From Micromonospora chaiyaphumensis (lineage in GTDB: Bacteria; Actinomycetota; Actinomycetes; Mycobacteriales; Micromonosporaceae), in contig NZ_FMCS01000001.1 of assembly GCF_900091435.1 (NCBI RefSeq), positions 124,001 through 188,000 of the forward strand: a stretch of 64,000 bases of DNA, in the 5' to 3' direction. Both the position numbers and the translations under genes were made by a program. How positions within the stretch are numbered: the first letter of the stretch is position 1; each line of letters begins with the position of its first letter. The notes under the pieces were generated by a model. That model was given only the letters and a program-made list of their open reading frames with translations. It did not search any database and had not been told where the DNA came from. Below are positions 52,833 to 54,459 of the stretch, one piece after another.

Positions 52833-52986
52833 GCGTTGTCTCCTTCTCCGTGCCTGCCGATCATGTGCACATCGGTCACGCTACGGAGCGGCCGCGTACC
52901 CGCGCTTCTCGAATCCTGACCGGTTCGGAGGTGATCAGGGTCATTGGTCCCGGGCCGGTTCGGGCCCAGTGGCCCTGCCGATTCTT

Positions 52987-53023
52987 CTACGACGCCGAGT
53001 AGTATTTACTACGTCTCGTAGTA
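52987..53023. promoter_or_regulatory. BlaI/MecI-like operator over the cydA promoter
   Basis: TACTACG-TCT-CGTAGTA (53007-53023) is a perfect 7-bp inverted repeat of the TACTAC...GTAGTA type known for BlaI/MecI repressors. A second, degenerate site (TTCTACGACGCCGAGTAGTA, 52985-53004) adjoins it. TAGTAT (53019-53024), a likely -10 hexamer, overlaps the right arm, so repressor binding would block cydA transcription. No blaI gene is present nearby. Confidence 0.72.
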
Positions 53024-53043
53024 TGCACAGCTGGGGGTTTCAG

Positions 53044-54459
53044 GTGGACGCGTTGGACGTCGCCCGCTGGCAGTTCGGTGTCACCACCGTCTACCACTTT
53101 CTCTTCGTGCCCTTGACCATCGGCCTGTCCGTGCTGGTGGCCATCCTGCAGACCCTGTGGCACCGCACCGGCAAGGAGCGGTACCTCAAGCTCACCAAGT
53201 TCTACGGCAAGCTCTTCCTCATCAACTTCGCCATGGGCGTGGTCACGGGCATCGTGCAGGAGTTCCAGTTCGGCATGAACTGGAGCGACTACTCGCGCTT
53301 CGTCGGCGACATCTTCGGGGCGCCCCTGGCCATCGAGGCCCTGGTCGCGTTCTTCCTGGAGTCCACCTTCATCGGCCTGTGGATCTTCGGTTGGGACCGG
53401 CTGCCCAAGCGGCTGCACCTGGCCGCCATCTGGGCCGCGGCCATCGGCACCAACCTGTCCGCCTACTTCATCCTCGCCGCGAACTCGTTCATGCAGAACC
53501 CGGTCGGCTACCGGGTCAACCCCGACACCGGCCGGGCGGAACTGACCGACTTCGTCGCCGTGCTCACCAACAAGGTCGCCCTGATCACCTTCCCGCACAC
53601 CCTGGCCGGCGCGTTCCTGGTCGCCGGGTCGCTCATCGTGGCCGTCGGGCTGTGGCACGTCATCCGCAACCGGGGCAGCGCCGACACCGACGCCTACCGC
53701 TTCGCCACGAAGTTCGGCTCCTGGGTCGTGCTGGTCTCCGCCGCCCTCGTGCTGTTCACCGGCGACATCCAGGGCAAGATCATGACTCAGGTGCAGCCCA
53801 TGAAGATGGCCGCCGCCGAGGGCCTCTACACCACCGAGAGCCCCGCCTCGTTCTCCGTGCTCACCGTCGGCAGCCTCGACGGCAGCCGGGAGATCTTCGC
53901 CCTCAAGATCCCGCACCTGCTGTCCTACCTCGGCACCGGCGACCCGAACGGCACCGTGCACGGCATCAACGACCTCCAGGCCCAGTACGCCAGCCAGTAC
54001 GGCGCCGGCAGCTACACCCCGATCATCCCGGTCACCTACTGGAGCTTCCGCTTTATGATCGGCCTCGGGATGGCCGCCGCCGCGATCGCCCTGCTCGTGC
54101 TCTGGACCCACCGCAAGGGCCGCACCCCGACCAGCCGGTGGCTGCTGCGCGCCGGCCTGGTCATGCCCGCGCTGCCGCTGCTGGCCAACTCCTTCGGCTG
54201 GATCTTCACCGAGATGGGCCGCCAACCGTGGATCGTCTTCGGCGAGATGCTCACCCGCAACGGCGTGTCCCGCAGCGTCTCGCTGACCGAGGTGCTCACC
54301 TCGTTCACCGCCTTCACCCTGATCTACGCCACCCTCGCGGTGATCGAGTTCAAGCTGCTGGTCCGCTACGCCAAGGCCGGCGTGCCCGACGTCAGCCCGC
54401 AGCCCGCCGCGGACGACGACACCGACGACGCCGAGCGCCCGCTGGCGTTCGCCTACTGA
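53044..54459 (+). CDS. cydA: Cytochrome bd oxidase subunit I
   Basis: About 471 residues, nine or so transmembrane helices. Haem ligand histidines are seen in TTVYHFLFVPLTIG (near residue 19) and ITFPHTLAGAF (near 180). The haem b595/d glutamates are in PLAIEALVAFFLESTFIGLW (near 90-110), the quinol-binding region has QPMKMAAAEGLYTTE (near 255), and the GRQPW block is TEMGRQPWIVFGEM (near 385). It has the short Q-loop of most bacterial CydA. GTG 53044 with GGGGG upstream fits MDALDVARWQFG as the usual start; the ATG at 53023 lies inside the -10/operator. Confidence 0.95.
   Translation: MDALDVARWQFGVTTVYHFLFVPLTIGLSVLVAILQTLWHRTGKERYLKLTKFYGKLFLINFAMGVVTGIVQEFQFGMNWSDYSRFVGDIFGAPLAIEALVAFFLESTFIGLWIFGWDRLPKRLHLAAIWAAAIGTNLSAYFILAANSFMQNPVGYRVNPDTGRAELTDFVAVLTNKVALITFPHTLAGAFLVAGSLIVAVGLWHVIRNRGSADTDAYRFATKFGSWVVLVSAALVLFTGDIQGKIMTQVQPMKMAAAEGLYTTESPASFSVLTVGSLDGSREIFALKIPHLLSYLGTGDPNGTVHGINDLQAQYASQYGAGSYTPIIPVTYWSFRFMIGLGMAAAAIALLVLWTHRKGRTPTSRWLLRAGLVMPALPLLANSFGWIFTEMGRQPWIVFGEMLTRNGVSRSVSLTEVLTSFTAFTLIYATLAVIEFKLLVRYAKAGVPDVSPQPAADDDTDDAERPLAFAY

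Follow-up and report, generated by a model that had tools for sequence, protein, structure and literature searches.

The window, a 64,000-nucleotide stretch of the Micromonospora chaiyaphumensis genome, carries a cytochrome bd oxidase locus, cydA1-cydB1, whose two products meet both the CydA and the CydB Pfam families (Table 1). Directly upstream of cydA1 is the palindrome TACTACGTCTCGTAGTA (O1), which ends 20 bp before the start codon and is accompanied by a second, imperfect copy (O2). The original prediction had described a BlaI/MecI-type palindrome overlapping a TAGTAT hexamer directly before cydA, with an imperfect site adjoining it, and had placed the CydA start at GTG 53044 rather than ATG 53023; each of these points holds. 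The GTG is invariant in 16/16 same-genus upstream regions, and the codons after it are nearly so, whereas the equivalent of the ATG is in frame in seven, out of frame in one and missing in eight. The distance from the start of O1 to the GTG is 36, 37 or 38 bp within the genus. Because the GTG is invariant, the ATG is not kept and the operator-GTG distance varies by one base, we assign the start of cydA1 to GTG 53044.

Table 1. Features of the cydA1 promoter region (window coordinates) and of the blaI operon (coordinates of locus L002)
Feature	Position	Strand	Remarks
Second conserved promoter block GTGATCAGGGTCATTGGTCCC	52931..52951		DosR-like or CRP-like; regulator unassigned
O2, second predicted BlaI operator	52988..53004		TACGACGCCGAGTAGTA, imperfect, 19 bp upstream of O1
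TAGTAT, candidate -10 hexamer	53000..53005	+	across O2 and the O1-O2 gap; inferred by reading the letters, no transcript data
O1, main predicted BlaI operator	53007..53023		TACTACG-TCT-CGTAGTA; kept in same-genus relatives; no binding data
TAGTAT, second candidate -10 hexamer	53019..53024	+	over the 3' half of O1; inferred by reading
G-rich Shine-Dalgarno-like run	53033..53037	+	6 nt before GTG 53044; inferred by reading
cydA1, cytochrome bd subunit I, 471 aa	53044..54459	+	Pfam Cyt_bd_oxida_I, E 3e-166; start GTG by alignment
cydB1, cytochrome bd subunit II, 332 aa	54473..55471	+	Pfam Cyt_bd_oxida_II, E 7e-117; NCBIfam cydB over cut-off
blaI	L002 8065-8493		contig C3, not the contig of the window; heads cyd operon
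M56/M48-like membrane metalloprotease, 301 aa	L002 8504-9409		directly after blaI
cydA2	L002 9510-10757		after the protease gene; followed by cydB2, cydD, cydC

The GTGATCAGGGTCATTGGTCCC block is exact in 13 of the 16 cydA1 upstream regions of the genus and unique in the genome at up to three mismatches. It resembles both the DosR box (GGGnC-N4-GnCCC) and a CRP-type site (GTGA-N6-TCA), and DosR-like GGGACnTTCGGCCC strings also lie upstream of cydA in other genera, in some cases without a BlaI site. Inspection of the cydA1 promoter of the window, by eye only, gave no close match to a Rex site, for which the motif is TGTGAAC-N3-TTCACA. A Rex-like string, TGTGAAAGTATTCACA, is found 61 bp before a Micromonosporaceae cydA that lacks a BlaI operator (L158, genome G042).

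Dinucleotide shuffles of the window give an expectation of 0.00 occurrences of the full 17-mer at up to three mismatches. Across the genome, the looser pattern TACTAC-N5-GTAGTA occurs no less often than chance would predict (one exact match, against one for the reversed control pattern), and TACTACG-N3-CGTAGTA at up to two mismatches occurs at 10 places against 28 for the control. Since these counts equal or fall below those of the controls, a genome-wide operator count was rejected as proof, and the significance of the site lies in its position and conservation, as a tandem before cydA in relatives. Good sites at promoters are confined in this genome to the cyd promoters and blaI. Five of the seven other places with at most two mismatches fall inside long GC3-rich open reading frames (L005, L007, L009, L011 and L012) and two are unassigned (L006 and L010); L008 in the same listing is O2 itself.

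The original prediction had advised a search for genes of the BlaI family, whose repressors are known chiefly from penicillin resistance. One is present, and only one: the genome encodes a single PF03965 (Penicillinase_R) protein, and a protein query again gave one match. Its winged-helix repressor domain (residues 4-117) scores 79.3 bits against a curated cut-off of 22.6 (E 1.7e-21), and the nearest solved BlaI structure is 2g9w (E 3e-25), which we take to be that of M. tuberculosis BlaI (Rv1846c). The gene order on contig C3 is blaI-M56 protease-cydA2-cydB2-cydD-cydC. A one-mismatch copy of the operator, TACTACGGGGGGTAGGA, ends 7 bp before the blaI GTG and occupies the same place in 15/15 same-genus relatives, as expected of an autoregulatory operator at the blaI promoter. 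Six nucleotides before this GTG is a TAGGAT, from which we infer that the promoter may be leaderless. With the runner-up CydD-like protein of the genome at only 36% identity, the cydDC genes on C3 may be its sole set.

The protease carries HERAH at residues 179-183, and His179, Glu180, His183 and the downstream Glu220 are invariant in 20/20 homologs, which satisfies the definition of a membrane gluzincin (HExxH plus a downstream Glu). Four hydrophobic regions remain after overlapping ones are merged. The protein does not reach the Pfam cut-off for M56 (25.8 bits against 31) and scores as M48 (41 bits against 20.3). Its predicted model has a mean pLDDT of 88.5, and the top Foldseek matches are BlaR1 structures (8exp, 8exs and 8exq) at probability 1.00, with weak statistics (E about 0.01, TM 0.2-0.4). 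A Pfam scan found no C-terminal penicillin-binding sensor domain; the protein stops after its last membrane helix, which indicates that the β-lactam sensor is missing. The label “β-lactam-type” thus denotes ancestry and not necessarily signal. Upstream of the HExxH motif there is also an invariant cysteine, Cys150 (AYCLPG motif of the L002 protease, alignment A2; 20/20 homologs), a possible redox or metal contact.

Both arrangements are kept throughout the genus. Tandem operators precede cydA1 in all 15 same-genus relatives, with no mismatch at the 12 half-site positions of O1, one mismatch in O2 and the 19-bp spacing preserved in every case. The order blaI-M56-cydA2, with the blaI operator, likewise occurs in 15/15; cydB2-cydD-cydC follows in 14, and the remaining locus (L099) meets a contig end after cydA2. 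With the genome of the window, which was counted apart from these relatives, all 16 genomes retain the two arrangements. Extra BlaI-type sites between M56 and cydA2 in six loci (L103, L107, L108, L217, L219 and L220) hint that the operon has a further, internal regulated promoter in some species.

In the Micromonosporaceae as a whole, BlaI-like proteins are found in 134 of 150 genomes and CydA-like proteins in 145. The family cydA sample comprised 20 + 80 loci, minus ten that had been chosen for adjacency (the divergent and tail loci L173-L182). Every examined genome with a BlaI of at least 150 bits (51/51) has a cydA copy that carries a site at up to one mismatch. By locus the figure is 52/57, and the five without a site (L120, L136, L137, L140 and L144) are additional cydA copies in genomes with BlaI. 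Where BlaI scores below 110 bits, 18 of 23 genomes have no site and five have the symmetric variant TTCTAC-N5-GTAGAA; one of four genomes at 110-130 bits carries a site. Control windows from the same loci, with windows holding a counted match skipped, gave 0/3628 matches to TACTAC-N5-GTAGTA at up to two mismatches and 2/3628 for the variant at up to one. The association of site with BlaI in the family has a Fisher p of 5e-13, a value that ignores relatedness, and much of the conservation of the sites is shared ancestry. Five genomes with BlaI of at least 150 bits are left out of this family tally (G068, G104, G113, G074 and G120); in the first three a site, or one with a single mismatch, is present near blaI, M56 or cyd, and the last two were not examined. 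In two of the 18 genomes without a site, G149 and G111, a diverged BlaI elsewhere adjoins an exact site; in G149 this BlaI is beside another cydA copy bearing operators. In some genomes blaI and cydA diverge, with the operators in the gap.

In the absence of binding data, the case for BlaI as the protein that reads these sites rests most strongly on the joint change of operator and BlaI type. Five variant genomes (G007, G012, G026, G040 and G062) have TTCTAC-N5-GTAGAA both at cydA and before their own diverged blaI, which is on another contig or far from cydA. In G014 the variant lies between divergent blaI and cydA, and in G075 (L208) two adjoining BlaI genes with different recognition-helix types are each preceded by their own operator type. 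This L208 pair is next to a distant cydAB-like pair. At residue 42, the 87 alignment rows of TACTAC type have Tyr (76) or His (11), and the 14 of TTCTAC type have Ala (11) or His, Ile or Tyr (one each); 30 further rows have no site or a two-mismatch site. A one-residue specificity code, with Tyr42 for TACTAC-type and Ala for TTCTAC-type operators, was considered and kept only as a lead, since a tree of 74 of the 131 rows, with near copies removed, places the TTCTAC type in essentially one clade plus one Streptomyces. The evidence from joint change thus comes mostly from one BlaI clade.

The association extends beyond the family. Of 80 named loci retrieved with a BlaI alignment, 50 have cyd genes beside blaI-M56: 30 are Micromonosporaceae (blaI-M56-cyd), 14 have the blaI-M56 pair and cydA in divergent orientation (records of Aeromicrobium, Kribbella, Microlunatus and the like) and six, from Janibacter or Knoellia, have cyd and then blaI-M56. 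Salinispora, Plantactinospora and Phytohabitans are also among the genera with this linkage. Two more loci meet contig ends; of the other 28, most belong to Nocardiopsidaceae and Pseudonocardiaceae, with no cyd genes alongside. In Janibacter and Knoellia, blaI-M56 is beside cydABDC, yet no CTAC-N5-GTAG site was present in the loci read. In Nocardiopsidaceae and Pseudonocardiaceae, blaI-M56 is away from cyd and a site can precede other genes; a Pfam scan of the genes neighboring Prauserella and Nocardiopsis blaI-M56 found no cyd genes. In Prauserella and Saccharomonospora, the gene for a small hydrophobic protein right after blaI-M56 is preceded by an exact BlaI-type site (near 8250-8300 in L266, L267 and L256), suggesting a non-cyd BlaI target.

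A class-wide sample outside the family comprised the 27 best non-family matches, 21 of the next 22 rows, and 11 f8 and 8 f33 loci, which were hand-chosen and are not unbiased. A site of either type with at most one mismatch is present in 36/67 cydA upstream regions. All 22 that have blaI in the fetched stretch carry the site, and the 31 that lack a site also lack a blaI within reach. In f8, 14/14 genomes with CydA have the site at the cydA promoter and no blaI in the retrieved sequence. The best match of one f8 CydA fragment is 7d5i, presumably the M. smegmatis enzyme, and from this match we infer that f8 probably includes mycobacteria. In f33, probably Streptomyces, a perfect Rex-type site is present in 8/8 cydA promoters, none of which has a BlaI site at up to one mismatch.

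We propose that the palindromes would be operators of the genome's single BlaI-family repressor, and assign a probability of roughly 0.86 to BlaI acting at these sites to control cyd, a figure that excludes the nature of the signal. What the computation shows is where the sites lie, how well they are conserved, that BlaI is encoded once and beside cyd genes, and that operator and repressor type change together; BlaI binding, repression and the cleavage of BlaI are inferred from this. BlaI-type control of cytochrome bd, as originally predicted, is supported to this extent by the lone BlaI and by the site before cydA in relatives, so that neither of the two conditions named for its refutation applies, without binding data. 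In the proposed mechanism, BlaI dimers occupying O1 and O2 side by side would lie across the promoter and block cydA1B1 transcription, and BlaI on the TACTACGGGGGGTAGGA site would block its own operon, blaI-M56-cydA2-cydB2-cydD-cydC. With operators at both places, one repressor would govern both bd oxidases and the CydDC assembly transporter. The BlaR1/M56-type protease probably cleaves BlaI on a membrane or respiratory signal, releasing cytochrome bd; cleavage would free both cyd operons and blaI, and so form a self-resetting switch.

As to the signal, it is conceivable, though short of an even chance, that BlaI-M56 pairs without a β-lactam domain are a class-wide sensor in Actinomycetes that detects bcc:aa3 failure at the membrane and releases cytochrome bd. 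In M. tuberculosis, either Q203 or a lack of copper raises the expression of cydABDC along with that of the ATP synthase genes (PMC12140626, section 6), and a sigC mutant starved of copper shows higher cyd and atp expression (PMC7924339, section 2.4). ATP synthase is a reported BlaI target, and this pattern fits a respiratory signal. If the pairs do act as such a sensor, BlaI/BlaR would be the missing switch behind mycobacterial cydABDC induction by Q203 or copper starvation, while Streptomyces use Rex.

A copper switch, in which the copper-free bd oxidase is turned on when copper is short, is an unlikely but possible account. It draws on the same rise of cydABDC and ATP synthase transcripts under copper starvation (PMC12140626, PMC7924339), on the invariant Cys150 near the active-site motif of the protease, and on cyanobacterial PetR-PetP, a BlaI/BlaR1-like pair that controls the choice between copper and heme electron carriers (PMC7896320). 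However, copper activates the PetRP protease (PMC7896320, PMC12292863), and with a plain repressor the same polarity would switch bd on under copper abundance, contrary to need; moreover, Q203, a QcrB inhibitor and not a copper chelator, gives a similar transcript pattern (PMC12140626). We consider it improbable that BlaI binds as part of a β-lactam or cell-wall stress response. The family name points that way, and β-lactam exposure raises blaI-blaR and cydAB transcripts in M. tuberculosis (PMC5473688), but the 301-residue partner ends with a membrane helix and lacks a PBP domain, and the good promoter sites of the genome are only at cyd and blaI. Respiratory or copper failure fits the mycobacterial data better than a link to the cell wall.

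That some other regulator binds the palindrome, and that blaI merely travels with cyd, is hard to sustain. In its favor, the present analysis has no binding data for BlaI, and the f8 promoters have the site with no blaI in the fetched stretch; however, the site precedes blaI itself at unlinked places, changes symmetrically with BlaI type in the five genomes with unlinked cydA, and is at cydA in all 51 examined relatives with a BlaI orthologue against none of the 23 without (five have the variant). A chance palindrome in an AT-rich promoter, which the lack of genome-wide enrichment of the loose pattern might have allowed, is already refuted by conservation, with 52/57 loci at up to one mismatch against no control window at up to two.

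In the open-licence PMC literature we found no account of a cyd-linked BlaI-M56 module in Actinomycetes, and the relevant papers there on BlaI with cytochrome bd were only mycobacterial ones and a cyanobacterial commentary. For M. tuberculosis BlaI, the Sala abstract reportedly lists blaC-sigC, blaIR, rv1456c, rv3921c and the ATP synthase operon, with cyd absent. In that species BlaI is already known to control bioenergetic genes: regulation of ATP synthase is reported (PMC5874750, PMC12565901), and one paper (PMC5473688) asserts, with reference to Sala 2009, binding of BlaI at the cytochrome bd promoter. Cytochrome bd, a backup respiratory oxidase, matters for mycobacterial survival of drugs against the main oxidase, and it is not settled what induces it. 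The BlaI-M56 pair is a concrete, testable candidate across Actinomycetes, given its linkage to cyd, the conserved operators and the way in which operator and repressor type change together. It also suggests a wide use of the BlaI/BlaR architecture in respiration rather than in antibiotic resistance.

The S. aureus BlaI-BlaR1 and MecI-MecR1 systems likewise pair a repressor with a membrane metalloprotease, and BlaR1 is the top, if statistically weak, PDB match of the protease model. In contrast, the Micromonospora protease has 301 residues against 539-556 in BlaR1 chains and no penicillin-binding sensor, and the targets are oxidase genes. Synechocystis PetR-PetP (PMC7896320) also combines a BlaI-like factor with a BlaR1-like protease in an electron-carrier swap, and is a precedent for such pairs in electron-carrier control. 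It differs in targets and phylum, PetR both represses and activates, and copper sensing has not been shown for the Micromonospora pair. Streptomyces Rex controls the same genes, cydABCD, but belongs to an unrelated regulator family, and the f33 promoters carry no BlaI site within one mismatch. A further comparison is with M. tuberculosis, whose BlaI is the nearest solved relative and has the same recognition-helix string, AYTTVM, and whose BlaR (Rv1845c) also lacks an extracellular sensor (PMC5473688). The proposed control of cyd by BlaI is an unusually broad and directly testable case of BlaI control of bioenergetics. In Micromonospora, unlike M. tuberculosis, blaI lies within the cyd operon and good sites occur only at the cyd promoters and blaI.
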